64,000 nucleotides of DNA. Source: Acheta domesticus. Taxonomy: Eukaryota; Arthropoda; Insecta; Orthoptera; Gryllidae. The stretch spans positions 2,417,217-2,481,216 of the forward strand of contig JAHLJT010009355.1 in the NCBI GenBank assembly GCA_031308135.1. The letters run 5' to 3'. Numbering within the stretch: position 1 is the stretch's first letter; each line of letters begins with the position of its first letter. This document shows positions 30,455 to 57,064 of this stretch, piece after piece. The notes under the pieces were generated by a model. The model had not been told where the DNA came from and did not search any database. It saw only the letters and a list, made by a program, of their open reading frames with translations. The position numbers and the translations under genes are program-made.

Positions 30455-30750
30455 AATTGAATTGAATTGCATTGCCTTATTTTACTTGGCGAGACTAAGG
30501 CCATGAGGCCTGCCCTTCCGTCTGACAACGCAAATTTCGCTACGCTCCTTTCACTAACTAGCGGAGAAAGAAGGTATTATCTCGGGCGACGAAACAGGCG
30601 ATTTGAATTTAGCTCAGAGGTTTCATTTAAGCTTTAGGATCTTTTACACAGTAAATCTACTGATATGGGACAGCCGGCTTTACTTCCCCGCCAAAGGAAG
30701 GGGTACGAAGGATTTTTTCACCCTTAAAAATCCACGCCTTCGATCGTATT
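30455..30750 (-). repeat. SINE family S2, headless copy
   Basis: Near-identical to 45291-45560: TTGCCTTATTTTAC, GGCCATGAGGCC, CTTCCGTCTGAC, AAAGAAGGTATTATCTCGGG, TATGGGACAGCC and AAAATCC(A/T)CG(C/G)CTTCGATCG. The tRNA-like head seen in the 45 kb copy is missing, and the GAATTGAATTG run is the tail on the minus strand. Confidence 0.75.
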
Positions 30751-37274: not shown

Positions 37275-37815
37275 CTTCCCTCTCTCTCTCTCTGTTTCTA
37301 TCCCTCTGTCGCTCTCTCCCTCTCTCTGTCGCTCTCTCCCTCTGTCGCTCTCTCCCTCTCTCTGTCGCTCTCTCCCTCTCTCTGTCGCTCTCTCCCTCTC
37401 TCTGTCGCTCTCTCCCTCTCTCTGTCGCTCTCTCCCTCTCTCTGTCGCTCTCTCCCTCTCTCTGTCGCTCTCTCCCTCTGTCGCTCTCTCCCTCTCTCTG
37501 TCGCTCTCTCCCTCTCTCTGTCGCTCTCTCCCTCTCTCTGTCGCTCTCTCCCTCTCTCTGTCGCTCTCTCCCTCTCTCTGTCGCTCTCTCCCTCTCTCTG
37601 TCGCTCTCTCCCTCTCTCTGTCGCTCTCTCCCTCTCTCTGTCGCTCTCTCCCTCTCTCCGTCGCTCTCTCCCTCTCTCCGTCGCTCTCTCCCTCTCTGTC
37701 TTTCTCTCCCTCTCTCTGTCTCTCCCTCTCTCTCCCTCCCTCTCTCTCCCTCTCTGTCTTTCTCTCCTTCTCTGTCTCTCTCTCACTCTCTGTCTCCCTC
37801 TCCGTCTCTGTCTCT
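37275..37815. repeat. 20-bp pyrimidine minisatellite
   Basis: About 20 units of GTCGCTCTCTCCCTCTCTCT, nearly perfect in the centre and degenerating to CTCTGTC and CTCCCT runs at about 37690-37815. A few units lack 6 bp. The unit contains no stop codon in some frames on either strand, so 160- to 230-codon open frames appear. They are artefacts of the repeat. Confidence 0.95.
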
Positions 37816-39951: not shown

Positions 39952-39959
39952 GGACCAAG
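39952..39959 (+). other. Target duplication, left (GGACCAAG)
   Basis: GGACCAAG abuts the left inverted repeat and recurs at 45016-45023 beside the right one. P elements make 8-bp duplications. If the terminal G at 45016 belongs to the inverted repeat, the duplication is 7 bp (GACCAAG). Confidence 0.75.
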
Positions 39960-40500
39960 CAACGCCTCCTAGACACAAGGCCTGTCGACTAAATCCAAGA
40001 TGGCGTCGAGGGTAGTCAATAGCCAGTTACTCAGCTACACTTGTGGTGACACCCTTATTTGACAAAGTTTTGTCACTCTGTCACGTCGCCCTGCCTATTT
40101 AAAACCATGTTAAATTTATGAAAGTTTTTGACCCATTTGTGAAGAAACTATTACATGCTGGAACTTGAAATTTTTACAGTATGTTACACAAATCTAGTAG
40201 ATTCTACTGTACTATTATATACTTTATTTGTTGACTAGTTTTTAAGAAATTATTTTTTTTAAATTATTAACAAAAAAATTAATTTTTTTCTGAAGAAAAC
40301 TTTTTTGTGAACATACTAATTAATGCACAATAAAACTTGTAGTACCAGAGATGTATTTTTATGTCATGCAGATTCACTGAAAGTTTCATTCAATTATCTC
40401 TGATAGTTTCTGAAATAATGGGGCATATGCACTGAAAATTGTAGTTTTCGGGAAATTGCCTTTAAAGTTAATCTTATCAATTTTTATCACTTACAGTTAA

Positions 40501-42222
40501 TTAGAATTGTCCTGCTGCATATGATGACCCTTCTTTGGCTTCTAGGATGTCTTCTAGCTTCCTTTTCACTTTTCTGGACGTCTCTCTTGCTTTTTTAGAC
40601 ATATTGGATGCAGATCTGTCTGCATTGGCAATCCTTAGCTGATCACAATATTGCAGCCCAGTGATCATATTTTTGCCAGGATTAATGCCCAGCTTTTTCA
40701 TGACCCAACACTTTCCAATATTCCCACAATTAAATGTTATAACAGCATCATGAACCCCTATTTTCATTGTATGCATGCCTACAAATACAGTTTTAGGAAG
40801 GCGGTTCCAAATGATGCTGTTAAAACATTCGTTTGGGTTCTGCGTCTGTCCATGCAGACATTTTTTTAGAAGATCAGGATTAGCTAGGTCTCTAAAAATA
40901 GGTTTAATTACATTAATAACAGCAGCAGGAAGTGAATGTTTATGAGAATACAATTCTCCAGTTGCCTGAGCTCTATTAAATTTGCACCATGAATTTTCCC
41001 CTGTTGGACACAATCCATGGCATGGCTTTTCATCAGTGGAGGACTTGTGAAAAAATATGGCCCATGCATCTCTCTTCATTGCCTCCATATTTTCTTTATT
41101 TCTTCTAATGGCCTGTCCATAGTAAATTTGTAAATTTTCTATTTCAGATTTTGTTAATCTACCCTGCCCAGTCAACAACTTTCCATCTTCCAACTTCTGA
41201 CCTCTCATGTCAATAGTTAATTTTCTTAGCCTTGTTCCCAAACGTTTTTGTACATGGCCTACACATTCCATTTTTGTCACATTTATATCCCCATAGGGCT
41301 TAGAGTTCACCACACTGTTGTAGGCCTTACTGTCACCATCTCCCAAATATTTGATGTATCGTACACCTCTTGTTTCCAGGGAGCGATGAAATATTTTTTG
41401 TACTCCTTCCACTTCCATACCACCACTGGTCCCACTAAAATTAGCCACACAGTTGTGTTCTTTGCCATTTTTTAGTTTACAACCCTGGCAATATTTTGTC
41501 ATAATTGCCACATCTAACACTTTCCCCGTATCAATACTTGTAGCAGTCACTACTCCATTCAATGAAGTATGCCCTCTTTTTTGCCAACTGCCATCTAGTG
41601 CAACTCCAATATCTGTGCATCCATCATTTTCTTCTACTGCTTCCCTGGCAGCCAATTTCATACTCTCCTCACTAACCTCTGACACAGCATTCTCTAACAT
41701 TGCAGTCAGCTTATGAAATTTATTCGGTGGTTGATGTAAGTTCATCACCGAACAAAATGTTTTCCCTGCAGCCATGCCCTTGCCAATAGAACGTAAGGCA
41801 TAAACTAATCTTGTATTGATTTCATAAGGGCCATTTGCTTCTGGTTTTGAAGAGCTCATAAATGAAATCGTAGTCAAACACTTTGCACAAATTATATCTA
41901 AAGATATTGCTAGGCCTTTTCTCCCACTGACACTTTCACAAATCTTTACACACTCAGATTCACCACACTGTTTACACTGTACAAATTTACAAATTGCATC
42001 AGATAAAATAGTTAAATTTATAATGATATTACTGCACTCCTTGTCAGTTGGAGTAAATTCATTATAACTGTCTTCAAATGGTGAGAGCTTCTTAGACGAA
42101 GCACTTCTTGATGAACAAGAAACACGAGCATTGTCACCAAACGACATAACCTCTTGCAGAGGCTTTTTAAATCTGTTTCCTCTAAAGTTACGTTTCTTGA
42201 AAACACCTTTAGGTTTCGTCAT
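40501..42222 (-). CDS. Mutator-like transposase, intact 573 codons
   Basis: The frame from the ATG at 42222 to TAA at 40501 is uninterrupted. A TTG-initiated extension upstream is ignored because insects start at ATG. The protein resembles the arthropod and cnidarian Mutator-like transposase domain family. A zinc ribbon is formed by C83-x2-C86 and C112-x2-C115. Next come VALDGSWQKRGH (D210, first catalytic Asp by analogy), C245-x2-C248 with H256 and C258, and GDGDSK (D295/D297, second Asp). CHGLC...WC (401-413) and QNPNECFNSI (E465, plausible Glu) follow, then a basic tail KVKRKLED. It would cut and join element DNA in the nucleus. Intactness beside the decayed P gene suggests later arrival. 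Catalytic assignments are by pattern only. Confidence 0.9.
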   Translation of the reverse strand: MTKPKGVFKKRNFRGNRFKKPLQEVMSFGDNARVSCSSRSASSKKLSPFEDSYNEFTPTDKECSNIIINLTILSDAICKFVQCKQCGESECVKICESVSGRKGLAISLDIICAKCLTTISFMSSSKPEANGPYEINTRLVYALRSIGKGMAAGKTFCSVMNLHQPPNKFHKLTAMLENAVSEVSEESMKLAAREAVEENDGCTDIGVALDGSWQKRGHTSLNGVVTATSIDTGKVLDVAIMTKYCQGCKLKNGKEHNCVANFSGTSGGMEVEGVQKIFHRSLETRGVRYIKYLGDGDSKAYNSVVNSKPYGDINVTKMECVGHVQKRLGTRLRKLTIDMRGQKLEDGKLLTGQGRLTKSEIENLQIYYGQAIRRNKENMEAMKRDAWAIFFHKSSTDEKPCHGLCPTGENSWCKFNRAQATGELYSHKHSLPAAVINVIKPIFRDLANPDLLKKCLHGQTQNPNECFNSIIWNRLPKTVFVGMHTMKIGVHDAVITFNCGNIGKCWVMKKLGINPGKNMITGLQYCDQLRIANADRSASNMSKKARETSRKVKRKLEDILEAKEGSSYAAGQF

Positions 42223-42664
42223 CTTCAAGAAACACAACAAAACGCGTAAAAAACGCCGCAAACGTAAGGATACAACACGTACTCACAAGCTACCCGCACT
42301 CAAAACACAAACAAAACTCACAACAATTTCAAACGTGTTTACCAAGAGCAGAAACAAGCGAACAACGACCGCGCTCTCCTCCAAGTATGGCCAACCCACT
42401 CAGGAGTCGGAAAAAAACTCCCTAAAGTGCATCAGCTAATGAAAATTAAGATAAAAAGTCCAAAATATGTAAGTGACAGAAAAGTGGGCGTGGCACCAAA
42501 ACGCACGTGTTAGAAAAAATGCTATTTAAATGACCCCAAAATTTTTTTCAGCCAAATCCTTTTAAGGACACTTAGAAAACACCATAACCTATCGAAATTT
42601 GACAAAAACCTAAAATCGATTTTTTTCGACCTGAACCAGGGTGTGGTCCCCTCAGAGGAGCGGT
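42223..42664 (-). mobile_element. Mutator 5' flank, possible terminal repeat
   Basis: Non-coding sequence upstream of the Mutator start. At about 42636-42656, read inward on the minus strand, GGGGACCACACCCTGGTTCA resembles GGTGACACCCTTATTTGACA at about 40046-40065 on the plus strand. The match is weak and needs a gap, so it is only a tentative pair of Mutator ends. Confidence 0.3.
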
Positions 42665-44822
42665 TTAATTTTTGTTGGAAAGAATATTGTGAAGTGAATA
42701 ATGCAGGGGTTCTGTTGATAACCCTGCATTATTGCTACCCCAATTTTCTAACCAACGCAAAAACTGCTGCAAAAAAGTTAGCTGCTTACAATTTTGAGTA
42801 ATAGGTTGTTGATATTCATTCATCAGCCTAATACCTTTGAAAGGAGTTTTCACATTCACTACATCCCACCATGTACATATTATTTCAATATACAGAGCAG
42901 TGTCTTGCCAATGAGAAAAATTTTTCTTTGGACCAAATTCTCTTAAGGCTGAAACAGTCATCCTATTGAAACTTTTTGTAACCAACTTGACATTTTGTCG
43001 CTCAATGGATGACGGATAGAGAGCCTTTATACTAAGACCATAGCCATATTTCAGCAAATTATCCTTTTCTACAGCATGGATCTCTTTTAAAGCATGAAAT
43101 GATGCTTGATGGACATTATCTGTTGAATCAAAATCTGAAAACATTACAGTCAGATCATTCTTATTGATCCAGTTATAGCGAATGCACTTCAACAAATGAA
43201 CTGTATCAACAAGATAGAAAAATGTTTTATTTTCTGTTTCTGGGTACTTGTATGTTGTTCGCATTTCTGGAGGTTGTGCAAACATGGACATGGCCTTCCG
43301 ATTAACAGGGTGGTTGTCAGTCACAACTGGAAGCACTTCAAAGCCAACGTTCGCAAGTCCAACAAGAACAACCTTGATAAGGGAATTTAAAACTTCGCCT
43401 GTCATCTTGCTAGCTCGCAAAATGTGCACAACATCCTTGTATGATGATAATAAACTGCTAATCATAAACACAAATGCACTTGATGCTCCCTCATTGCTAT
43501 TAAAGGCACTTCCTACAATATTACCACCTTTATAGTCAAATTGAGTCTGTAAATGAATTTCATCTAGGAGTAGAATTACCGACAAATCCTTCTTTCTCAA
43601 ATACTGAAATTTATTAGATATATATCTGAAAATACTTTTAGCTTGTTGCTCCAACTGAGGGTTTATTATTTTTTTACCACACATCCATTTCACCGTTGAC
43701 TGATTTGGTAGAATAAACAACTGAGAACTACTTAAAAAATTAAAACAATGAGGTGAAATTGAAAACAACAAAGAACAAAACACGAAAAATTCTGGGGAAT
43801 ACCTAAACCTAGTTTTGCTTACATTTAACAAGGACACCTGCTCTTTCAAAAATCAAATTATCGGACCTTTCTCAGCCAGACAGGTTTCTAAATGGTTTAG
43901 ATGTTCTGTAATGTTTTCAATTAATTCCTTTCACATCACTTCTTTCAAGTTTCTTTCTTCACAACTATTCATTATTTCCTCATTTTGATTTAGGTTATCT
44001 ACCTTAGACGGCAACAATTTTCCCCCGATCTTCTGCATTAAAATGTTGCCATAATACACAATCACTGTGAGATCACAGTTAATTTTAATAAGAACATTTT
44101 ACACTTGGGTGTGGAATGTCCTTTAGGAGGAGAAAGCACACAACTTTGTCTTTCTTCATCACTATCCATTCACTATTGAAGTTATAATTTTTAAGCAACA
44201 ACAATAGTTCTTCAAATGTTGAAAAAACATGTTTTTGGTTGTAACATTCTAAGCTTTCCATGCTTTCAGTCACAGCTTTCTGTAATGTATTGCTTCCTAT
44301 CCGCAGTCTCCTTTCTGCAGGACTTTCTCGCACTTTGGTTACAGTTTTGGATAGATATGCTGGGCATCCTATCATCTGTGATGGTACAGCACCCGGAAAG
44401 AAAGTGATTAGACTTGTAGGATATATTATTTTGTAGATTCAACATGAGTAGGTTAAGTGATAAAATTGCTTTTAATTACCTGTGATAAGCTTTGGATAAA
44501 GCAATGGAGCAGATACTAATTCTCCAGTTTTTTCCATCATAAGATGATGAAGACCGTAATATCTCACTACTCCGGAAATGCAGTTCTAACCTGAAATAAG
44601 ACATTTTTAAAACATTTAACACAACTTAATATTTATAATAAGAGACACAATGTGTTACACAATACTTACTCTAGAAGTTTTAGATGGCTGAAAATCTTTT
44701 CGGTGAATTCCATTCGACCACTTTAGTCTCCATTGCTCCTCATGTGGAAACTTAAAAACGCTTACCATTGGTCCATTAGGGTAATTCCCTCTACACTGTG
44801 GTACGCAACAACGAAACGGCAT
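42665..44822 (-). pseudogene. P-element/THAP9-like transposase, decayed
   Basis: Exon 1 (44822-44671) encodes the start of a THAP zinc finger, MPFRCCVPQCRGNYPNGP, followed by FKFPHEEQWRLKW, and ends at a good donor AGA|GTAAGT. Exon 2 starts near 44590 with ELHF, but the expected Cys codon is lost with a frameshift, and a second shift follows before the ELVSAPLLYPKLIT stretch (donor at 44480). Exon 3 begins AVPSQM at 44392, where the acceptor reads GG instead of AG. A frameshift near 44095 and two in-frame stops (about 43925 and 43855) follow. The 42665-43849 frame then carries the RYSPE...FILPNQSTVKWM block and the RNase H-like core (LLLDEIH, then VVTDNHPVNRKAM). The C-terminus is missing. 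The intact family excises and inserts P elements. Confidence 0.9.
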
Positions 44823-45015
44823 ATTGTACCAGTCAGAAATACTACAAATAATGACTTATATACGTCGCACACTATTTATCACCGCTGAGAATATCTTGTT
44901 TACACCAGCTAACGCACGCGTATACTACCGGCAGTAGCTCACGATATGACTACTTTCGTCGCCATCTTGACTCCCCGAATGCCAGCCAGCAGGCCTTACA
45001 AATCTAGGTGGCGTT

Positions 45016-45023
45016 GGACCAAG
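45016..45023 (+). other. Target duplication, right (GGACCAAG)
   Basis: Matches 39952-39959 exactly. See the left copy for the one-base ambiguity. Confidence 0.75.
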
Positions 45024-45061: not shown

Positions 45062-45290
45062 GCATCTGCCTTGTGGCTTAGCTCATTGGCAGCGTGCTTG
45101 CTTTCCATGACGCGTTCCTGGGTTCTATTCCCGGTCGGGCAAGATTATAGTGTGCGTTTTCCTTGCAATGTGCCAGTGTTTGTTGCTGTGTGGCGATGAG
45201 AAAATCTACTGTCAGGTTGAGAAGACCAACATACGGCGTGGGGATGTTTTCGTGCTAACCTCACGTACCCCCTTAATCTCCAGTGGTGCA
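45062..45290 (+). repeat. tRNA-derived SINE
   Basis: The head has an A-box TGGCTTAGCTCATTGGCAGC and a B-box GGGTTCTATTCCC, with a T-arm that pairs (CTGGG/CCCGG). The acceptor arms pair poorly, so this is a SINE head, not a gene. The body ends where the oppositely oriented S2 SINE begins. Confidence 0.6.
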
Positions 45291-45625
45291 GAAGAATTGA
45301 ATTGCCTTATTTTACGTGGCGAGACTCGGGCCATGAGGCCCACTCTTCCGTCTGACCACGCAAATTTTGCTACGCGCCTTTCACCTAGCGGAGAAAGAAG
45401 GTATTATCTCGGGTGACGAAACAGACGATTTGAATTTAGCTCAGAGGCTTCATTTAGGCTTGAGGATCCTTTACATGTAGTACATCTACATGGGACAGCC
45501 AGCTTTACTTCGCCTCCGAAGGAAGGTATACGAAGGATTTTGTCGCCGTTAAAAATCCTCGGCTTCGATCGGGTTTGAATCCTGGAACCTGGATTTAACA
45601 GTCCAATACACTAACCGCTACACCG
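45291..45625 (-). repeat. SINE family S2, complete copy
   Basis: On the minus strand it starts with a tRNA-like head: CGGTGTAGCGGTTAGTGTAT for the A-box region and CCAGGATTCAAACCC for the B-box (about 45570-45585). The body is shared with 30455-30750, and a CAATTCAATTC-type tail ends at about 45291. It abuts the plus-strand SINE at 45062, a tail-to-tail pair. Confidence 0.8.
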
Positions 45626-47257
45626 CCGACGCCGCAAAAGACATCAGAGGCGAGCGGCGGCCATGGGTGACGGCTCGCGTTTCGGAGCACGCGGCCAATT
45701 CGTCACGCGCCCACTCGCACACGCCGACGCGACCGCTCACGCGCACTGGCGCGGCCGAGCGGCTGCAGGAGCACGGGGCGGGGGCCTTGGCGGGAGCGAT
45801 GGCGGGGCGGGGCGGGGGGCGGGAGCGGTGTGGAGGCGTGGATAGGACAGGGCGAAGAAGGGAGAACGGGGAGGTGCAGAATGACCAAGGACGGAGATGG
45901 ATTGGGAAGGGAGGACACGCAGGCGGAAATTGAAAAACGAGGAAGGACAACGGGATAGGGAACGGAGTGCGGGTGGCAGTTCAAATCGGGCATCGCTTCA
46001 GCCAGGGGAAAATCTAAGCACAAGGGTGTGTAAGGTGAGAGGGAATAGAAAGGAAAGAGGTGCGTGGCCTGTTTGTCAGCGGGAATGCTGACTCTCAGCT
46101 AATCTTAGTTGGTGTCGCGGTAGAGTGCGTAGGTGGGAGAGTTACGGGAAAGAGTAGCGAGCAGAGGAGAGAGAGAGAGAGATTGAGAGAAAGAAAGGGC
46201 GGTGGGGAGACTGGAGGGCTATGGGTGGCAGTGGCAAGGGTAGTTGGCGATGGTTCGCGTAGGGTCGCACAGGAATATTCGTATATTGGGGCAAGAGCCA
46301 GTTCGGACTCGTGTGGGCTGAGATTGCACCGAGACGAGGGCGTAGCGAGGGTCCTGAGGGCGATACGTATGAAGACAGGGAAGGATGGGTGGGAGGAAGG
46401 GGCGGGGCGGGAACGCGTGTGGCTAGAGGGTTAGCAGGAGGGGTGAGGCTGGGTTTACTGCCACACGGCGACAGGGGACATAAGGCGAGGGGAAGTGTCA
46501 GGGCGGGAATGGCGATGGCGAAGGTGAGGACGAAGGCGAAGGTGAGTGCGCAGGTGAGGACGACCGGGGCGAGGGCGAAAGGGAAGGCGACGGTGAGGAC
46601 GAGAGCGAAGACGAGGATGAGGGAGTGGATGAAGGCGGAGGCGAGGGTGAAGGCGAGGGCGAAGGTGAAGGCGAGGGCGAGGGTGAAGGCGAGGGCGATG
46701 GTGAAGGCGAGGGCGAGGGTGAGGGTGAAGGCGAGGGCGAGGGTGAAGGCGAGGGTGAGGGTGAAGGCGAGAGCGAGGATGAACGAGAGGACGAGAGTGA
46801 AGCCGATGGCGATGGCGAGGGTGAGGGCGGGGCCGAGGGTGACAGTGTGGGCGTGGGCGGGGTGAGGCGAGGGCGAGGGTGAAGCGAGGGCGAGGGTGAA
46901 GCCGAGGGCGATGGCGATGGCGAGGGTGACAGTGTGGGCGTGGGCGAGGTGAGGCGAGGATGAGGGGTGGGCGTGGGCGGGAGGCTGCGGCTAACAAGGG
47001 CGCGCGGGGCGCTGCGGCGCTATGCGTCTCGCCCTCATTTGTTTCTTCTGGCCGTTAGAGCGCGGCGCGGGCGGTTGTGGAGGGGGAAACAATTGCCGAG
47101 CGTCCGGCGCTGTCCGCCGTCGCGGCCGTTTGAATAAAAACGAGCCCCCGGGAGGCCGGGGCGCATGCATCACCCGGCGAGGACCCCTCCCCCTCCCCCC
47201 CCCGCCACGACCACTGCGCCCGCCCAGCCAGCCATCGCATTGGCCGCGCCTCCACAC
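45626..47257. other. GC-rich region with CpG-dense ends
   Basis: 45640-46000 and 46985-47257 are CpG-dense, and the middle is the purine-rich minisatellite. Many overlapping frames exist on both strands, but all are Arg/Pro/Gly/Glu-rich and match no domain, so no gene is called. A (GAGA)n run lies at 46168-46184. A CpG-island promoter is possible but no exon could be supported. Confidence 0.4.
46490..46960 (+). repeat. Degenerate GGCGAG/GGTGAA hexamer minisatellite
   Basis: Runs of GGCGAGGGTGAAGGCGAGGG and variants. The six-base periodicity keeps several frames open (Glu-Gly, Ala-Arg-Val-Lys and, inverted, Arg-Pro-His-Pro). The blocks at about 46845-46880 and 46925-46980 (GTGGGCGTGGGCG) are an internal duplication. 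Confidence 0.9.
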
Positions 47258-56200: not shown

Positions 56201-56599
56201 GCCGAAGACGGTGAGCATGTTGTCGCGGAGGGTGGCGGCGGCCCACAGCGCCGTCTCCACGTCGTTGAGCAGCGCGTGGCGCGCGCGCAGCGACTGCGCG
56301 TCGTCCAGGGCGGGCGACCGCCGCGCCTCCACCGGCGGCGCCGCGAAGCCCGGCACCAGCGAGTTGAAGCGCGGCGCGAGCACGCCGCCCGCCGCGCTGA
56401 GCAGGCGCGCGGAGCCGCCCGCGCCGAAGAACTGCGCCGTGCCGCCCAGCCACGCGTCGCCCGCCGCGGACGCGGACGCGGACGCGTTGGCGCCCGCGGC
56501 GGCGGAGGCCGAGGCGGACGGCGCCACCAGCACGGGCCACTGCCCCGAGCGCCGCCCGTCGCCGTACTCGTCCAGCATGCGCTCCAGGCTCCAGCCCTC
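53204..56599 (-). CDS. Large exon, unrecognised helical-repeat protein
   Basis: A 3396-bp exon (1132 codons) between an acceptor CCGGCAG|GAG and a donor AAG|GTACGT, phase 0 at both ends, so earlier exons must exist. In order (exon residues, approximate): an Ala/Ser-rich stretch (25-55); a long helical N-terminal region (100-600); a Thr-rich, mucin-like linker (625-690); then four repeats of about 70 residues starting near 750, 862, 972 and 1072. The repeat consensus is LRPIRxFF...LGxxFxPxxYxTKGxLLxAxLxxALxL, and a fifth repeat lies in the next exon. N-x-S/T sites and a few Cys hint at an extracellular protein, but no signal peptide is in this exon. The 5' half is extremely GC-rich. I do not recognise the family. 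Confidence 0.85.
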
Positions 56600-57064
56600 C
56601 TGCCGGCACACACAAGCACAGAATTACTCCTGTAGCCCTCCCACGCTCACAACACAAAAGCACACAGTTACTCTCCAGCCCTCCTGCCAGCACACACAAG
56701 CACACGGTTACTCGACAGACTTCCTGCCAGCACACACAAGCACACAGGTACTCCTCCGGCCTCCAGCCCTTTTGTCAGCACTCACAAGCACACGGTTACT
56801 CTCCAGCCCTCCTGCCAGCACACACAAGCACAGATTCACTCCTCCAGCTCTCCTGCGCTCACAACACAAGCACTCCGGCCTCCAGCGCTCCTGTACCCAC
56901 CATACATGCACTGATTTACTCCTCCAGCATGCGTTCCAGCCCTCCTGCGCACCCACAGATTCATCTCTCCTGTGCTCACAACGTAAGCACAGTTACTCCT
57001 CCAGCCTCCAGCCCTCCTGCAGTCACAACACACAAGCACAAAGTTACTCCTCCAGCTTCCGCTT
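56600..57064 (-). repeat. Tandem copies of exon 5' boundary
   Basis: About ten degenerate units of 38-55 bp. On the minus strand each reads GAGTAACTGTGTGCTTGTGT, GTGCTGGCAG, then GAGGGCTGGAG. The last unit contains the real acceptor and first codons of the large exon. One unit near 56925 also copies the exon's CTGGAGCGCATGCTGGA segment. Several units keep a usable pyrimidine/GT tract and CAG. The array is the upstream intron end. Confidence 0.8.

Follow-up and report, generated by a model that had tools for sequence, protein, structure and literature searches.

A Kolobok-like transposon inside a defective P element of Acheta domesticus: a probable case of simple nesting

The stretch of Acheta domesticus DNA analysed here (64,000 nucleotides, hereafter the window) is part of contig C6096 in a 2.33-Gb assembly and contains a unit in which two transposase genes lie between a single pair of inverted ends. 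A first-pass annotation, made from the letters alone, offered two histories for this arrangement: a Mutator transposon inserted into a P element with loss of P 3' sequence, or a mobilisable composite in which P-type ends carry an intact Mutator-type gene as cargo. The locus therefore raises the question of how the two elements came together, and how a perfect flanking duplication came to surround a strongly decayed P gene. The assembly was searched for siblings of both elements.

The outer unit is a P-type element of 5,057 bp (39960-45016), starting with CAACGCC at 39960 and finishing with GGCGTTG at 45016. Its terminal inverted repeats are imperfect and align only with gaps, but they score 173 against a maximum of 137 in 200 shuffles, and GACCAAG is found on both sides, which confirms the proposed unit of about 5.06 kb with inverted ends and a flanking duplication. 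The 8-bp duplication originally suggested consists of the 7-bp GACCAAG plus one base belonging to the right P end. The outer features are as follows.

39953..39959, no strand: left copy of the target site duplication GACCAAG, read from the sequence; 7-bp duplications are also present at four sibling P copies
39960..40079, minus strand: 3' end of the P element (terminal inverted repeat and subterminal sequence), 93-99% identical to six other places over 120 bp
42653..45016, minus strand: 5' part of the P element, from comparison with P siblings
45017..45023, no strand: right copy of the target site duplication GACCAAG, read from the sequence

The genome search yielded at least 13 places for the P left end and at least 44 matches for the P body. 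Nine P places besides the window were fetched (L042-L050), three of them partial: a run of N interrupts L047, while L048 covers just the 5' part and L049 just the 3' part. Both ends could be seen in seven P copies, the window included, and a duplication lies directly outside the same ends in six of these, being 7 bp in five (window, L042, L043, L044 and L046) and 8 bp in L045, while the diverged copy L050 has none. The outer boundaries of the unit are thus P-type element ends, as first called. P elements make target duplications of about 8 bp, and the CA...TG ends and 7-8-bp duplications of the window P family are shared with the P element/THAP9 family. The idea that the outer ends might be a property of the inner element was rejected, since P siblings carry the same ends without the inner gene. 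Separately, L046 and L050 contain extra stretches of approximately 0.8-0.9 kb in the P 5' part, possibly further nested insertions.

Beyond the right end of the unit, 45072-45140 and 45294-45571 contain by eye a tRNA-like A/B-box stretch and appear SINE-like, the latter being 87% identical to 30464-30746; ARAGORN called no tRNA in the 64,000-nt window. Tandem arrays of a CT-rich repeat, a GGCGAG-like repeat and a 40/88-bp repeat occupy 37277-37815, 46511-46979 and 56582-56873, respectively.

The P-type gene lies on the minus strand and has the features of the P element/THAP9 family, namely a THAP domain, an RNase H part (Pfam, E=4.9e-15) and a GTP-binding insertion; the Drosophila P transposase chain 6p5a also matches it (E=4.8e-9). 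The GTP-binding insertion scores 18.9 bits in the window frame, under the Pfam cut-off of 24.8, and 25.4 bits in L044, above it. The window P itself is non-autonomous, with its C-terminal part deleted and its frame shifted.

44670..44822, minus strand: first exon of the P gene, THAP domain (PF05485, E=1.6e-6)
44085..44438, minus strand: middle exon of the P gene, with a frame break at its downstream end that is common to L042
42668..43852, minus strand: RNase H/GTP-binding-insertion frame of the P transposase, C-terminus missing (Pfam; 6p5a)
42701..42710, no strand: breakpoint of an older internal P deletion; the approximately 0.89 kb missing here is retained in L044-L047, and inverted filler CCCCTGCATTATT adjoins the breakpoint

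The first-pass annotation had tied the loss of P 3' sequence to the inner insertion, and this proved wrong. The approximately 0.89 kb of L044-L047 is missing from the window, L042 and L043 alike, with an identical inverted filler at the breakpoint, which lies about 50 bp from the inner insertion; as L042 and L043 sit on other contigs, the deletion is the older event and the insertion was rejected as its cause. In P orientation, the old deletion with its filler (42697-42733) reads AATAATGCAGGG ... CCCCTGCATTATT in the three P copies.

The nearest P relative, L042, is 99% identical to the window P (24 differences in 2,484 bp). It carries the same internal deletion and the same frameshifting indels, yet holds an empty inner site, and it sits in its own duplication at another site; L043 has fewer of the frameshifting indels than L042. 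Just one indel is unique to the window P, a loss of 9 bp at the site of the inner element. Because the frameshifting indels are common to a copy at another site with its own duplication, the window P was already defective when it transposed, which explains the perfect duplication around decayed coding sequence. Since a deleted and frameshifted P moved, and siblings with the same lesions sit at other sites, the P transposase would have been supplied from elsewhere.

The second gene lies on the minus strand as well, so that both genes do share a strand as first described, and its frame is indeed intact. It matches PF20700 of Pfam, 'Mutator-like transposase', with E=1.1e-67. The extent of the inner element was set by its siblings: identity stops at 40089 and 42652 in the 11 other copies compared (one base shorter in L008), and the element proper ends at 42651, base 42652 being an A before GGGG in gene orientation.

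40089..42652, minus strand: putative Kolobok element, 3' end short by 10 bp, delimited where sibling identity stops
40504..42222, minus strand: intact transposase gene of this element, 573 aa (PF20700), an uninterrupted frame with residues D210, D295/D297, C320xxH323 and E465

Within the window, the inner terminal repeats are undetectable without siblings, because the best local alignment of the window alone (210) falls under the shuffle median of 231. Searching the genome with the inner gene gave 41 matches from a scan that scored 40 of its 164 candidates. At 95% identity or more, the 5' end belonging to this family was found in 12 places, with three further weak matches that are more distant, and all 12 copies (window, L002-L008 and L051-L054) were checked at both ends. 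TTAA stands on both sides in eight of them (L002, L004-L007 and L051-L053), including L052, whose 5' terminal repeat is altered. TTCA takes the place of TTAA at both ends of L054; the 5' TTAA of L008 lacks its AA, the 3' end of L003 is broken, and the window copy is altered at both ends. Seven of the 12 retain the full 573-aa frame. A further partial copy, L055 (87% identity, no 5' end), falls outside this count, and no P sequence was seen there. Some copies share a flank on one side: L006 and L007 a 914-bp 3' flank at 97.3%, L051 and L053 a 3' flank at 98.6%, and L051 and L052 a 5' flank at 94.4%. Such sharing might reflect insertion into repeated sequences, chimeras among the short contigs or aberrant transposition.

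The siblings bear on the class of the inner element, which had been taken as Mutator-type. Mutator (MuDR) elements make target duplications of 8-10 bp. A passage in PMC2774946 gives 9 bp for maize Mu, while Kolobok elements duplicate TTAA (PMC9587614, section 3). No 8-10-bp duplication was found at the inner copies or in a second, related family; a 9-10-bp Mutator duplication and inner ends drawn by eye were both rejected once sibling copies were compared. The true inner ends, which the first-pass annotation had proposed to locate, were set by the siblings, and the duplication at these ends was TTAA rather than one of 8-10 bp. The termini of the siblings read GGGG...CCCC, in agreement with the 5'-RR and YY-3' ends of Kolobok, the window copy lacking its 3' end. 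The second family, 73% identical to the first, has the same pattern of GG...CC termini and TTAA, the latter at 11 of 11 5' ends and nine of ten readable 3' ends. It comprises 11 copies (e.g. L056 and L057), two of which match each other at 99.4% identity across 2,610 bp.

The protein was compared in an alignment of the window transposase with 18 relatives picked from 120 listed of 1294; those named in the list are from Trichonephila, Periplaneta and Homalodisca. D210, D295/D297 and E465 are invariant in all 19, as are C320 and H323, corresponding to the C/DxxH motif between the second D and E, and together these are the predicted catalytic residues. H402, C405 and C413, which would bind zinc, are likewise invariant between CxxH and E, where all Kolobok lineages but Kolobok1 have a zinc finger (PMC9587614, section 10); C245, C248, H256 and C258 are nearly invariant. 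A passage in PMC6004289 states that Kolobok transposases usually carry a THAP domain, whereas the Pfam scan of the inner transposase returned PF20700 only and no THAP domain; sections 3, 9 and 10 of PMC9587614 do not demand one. The inner family thus shares TTAA, RR...YY termini and the D, D, CxxH, E residues with the Kolobok superfamily, the window copy differing by its missing TTAA and one missing end, while its likeness to Mutator (MuDR) lies in the Pfam name of PF20700. Because TTAA flanks eight of the 12 copies on both sides and the termini are GGGG...CCCC, the element fits Kolobok and not Mutator, despite that name. In the literature searched, no mention was found of PF20700 or of the phrase 'Mutator-like transposase domain-containing'.

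The empty site of L042 allows the insertion to be reconstructed. In P orientation it reads CTCCTCTGCTCCTTTAAAGAGTGAC, and the window has CTCCTCTGA followed by GGGGACC at one junction, and CAGGG followed by CGACGTGAC and AGAGTGAC at the other. The P sequence lost at the site is CTCCTTTAA only, which contains the TTAA target.

40080..40088, no strand: 9-bp filler (GTCACGTCG on the plus strand), defined against the empty site of L042 and the ends of L004

Compared with the expected insertion, one junction has lost 8 bp of flanking sequence, most of the TTAA among them, and at the other the 9-bp filler stands where 10 bp of Kolobok terminal repeat and TTAA are expected, leaving the window copy with TTAA on neither side. 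No source of the filler CGACGTGAC was traced. Because the window copy has no TTAA of its own, it is the empty site in L042, together with the sibling Kolobok copies, from which insertion at TTAA is inferred. The missing TTAA and the truncated end with filler resemble end-joining, and DNA repair might instead have copied a Kolobok piece into a broken P element, or ligated one there. This is rather unlikely, since nearly the whole element is present and the break would have coincided with the one piece of P sequence lost, the piece containing the TTAA target.

The relative ages of the two elements could be compared from private substitutions. The window P has accumulated 13 in 2,484 bp since its split from L042, a count which dates that split and not the arrival of P at the window site, against four in 2,564 bp of Kolobok (Fisher p=0.028). 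Given the lower number, the Kolobok insertion is probably younger than the split. Overall, the window Kolobok differs from the family majority by six substitutions, two of them also in L002 and L008. All three private coding changes (L379M, V386A and Q547E) alter the protein, which gives no indication that selection preserves this copy.

These data also weigh on the mobilisable composite. The 7-bp duplication does surround the whole unit, and with the Kolobok ends damaged only the P ends could move the inner gene now. However, of the 12 Kolobok copies that retain a 5' end, just the one in the window lies within P, none of the nine other fetched P places matches Kolobok, and no second copy of the unit was found. 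Moreover, private changes are fewer in the window Kolobok than in the P around it, and none of the five other translated P copies (L042, L044, L045, L046 and L047) has an uninterrupted P frame. A composite is accordingly a highly improbable reading. Examining P copies with the same ends for the inner gene, as the first-pass annotation had advised, thus favoured its other option: P copies without the inner gene exist beside clean, independent inner copies elsewhere, and a nested, non-composite history in two steps is very likely. In the first step, an internally deleted and frameshifted P moved into the site with a 7-bp duplication, as its siblings show, the enzyme presumably coming from elsewhere. 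In the second, a young TTAA-targeting Kolobok would have entered TTTAAA near the P 3' end.

Both Kolobok junctions would then have been damaged after insertion, and the other young copies suggest how. Among the eight youngest (window and L002-L008), end lesions occur in three, and four of 16 junctions are damaged against seven indels in approximately 20.5 kb of body (p=1.7e-5, in a test devised after the lesions were noticed). In six of the seven body indels, a homopolymer run has changed by one or two bases. L003 (G000:C5460:289323505-289328226) matches the majority without a substitution, yet the last bases of its 3' end are missing; behind this broken end follows a direct duplicate, at 99.9% identity, of approximately 1 kb from the 5' flank of L003, ending in the empty TTAA site. 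A passage in PMC3744419 describes tandem duplications formed by alternative transposition of maize Ac, which L003 resembles in its direct duplication of about 1 kb from a broken transposon end. It differs in involving a single element with a truncated end, and the likeness is one of sequence.

The lesions suggest transposase cuts that were repaired badly. For the window copy, the weakest step of the proposed history is that transposase cut at the element's own ends and that the breaks were then closed by end-joining rather than leading to escape, a step with an about equal chance of being right or wrong. Alternatively, the insertion was clean and unrelated random small deletions later struck both ends. 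Random indels do happen, L008 also having an 18-bp body deletion. In the second Kolobok family, 21 junctions could be read and one of them carries a lesion, of 1 bp; a 1-bp deletion also lies slightly inside a terminal repeat. Because the junctions of this family are nearly clean, end damage is not general across Kolobok families. Chance deletions nevertheless appear unlikely, given one non-homopolymer body indel in the eight copies against four lesions in 16 junctions, and the broken end of L003 despite its lack of substitutions. Less probable still is an error of assembly, whether at the junctions or in L003. The junctions are known from the assembly rather than from reads, haplotype joins can make false duplications and an assembly join could also produce L003, and C521 and C4567, home of two copies, are short contigs; the window contig, however, spans 147 Mb, and the outer duplication of the unit is coherent.

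The outcome in the window is a Kolobok gene with a full-length transposase frame, probably locked in place. That the family's transposase often cuts its own element without release, leaving young copies locked by end-joining scars while they still make transposase, is a tentative and somewhat doubtful extension. If true, locked copies would serve the other members of the Kolobok family as stationary helpers, and for the one in the window, travel as cargo of P would be the only way left to move. The history as a whole is mostly ordinary, the damaged ends being its only mildly unusual feature. The locus offers a clean case of the relative order of events, with a TTAA transposon in a P element and the empty site kept in a sibling, and an element that Pfam names 'Mutator' while it behaves as Kolobok in this genome matters for the annotation of animal transposons. 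If the scars were made by transposase, this young family would allow the study of failed Kolobok excision.
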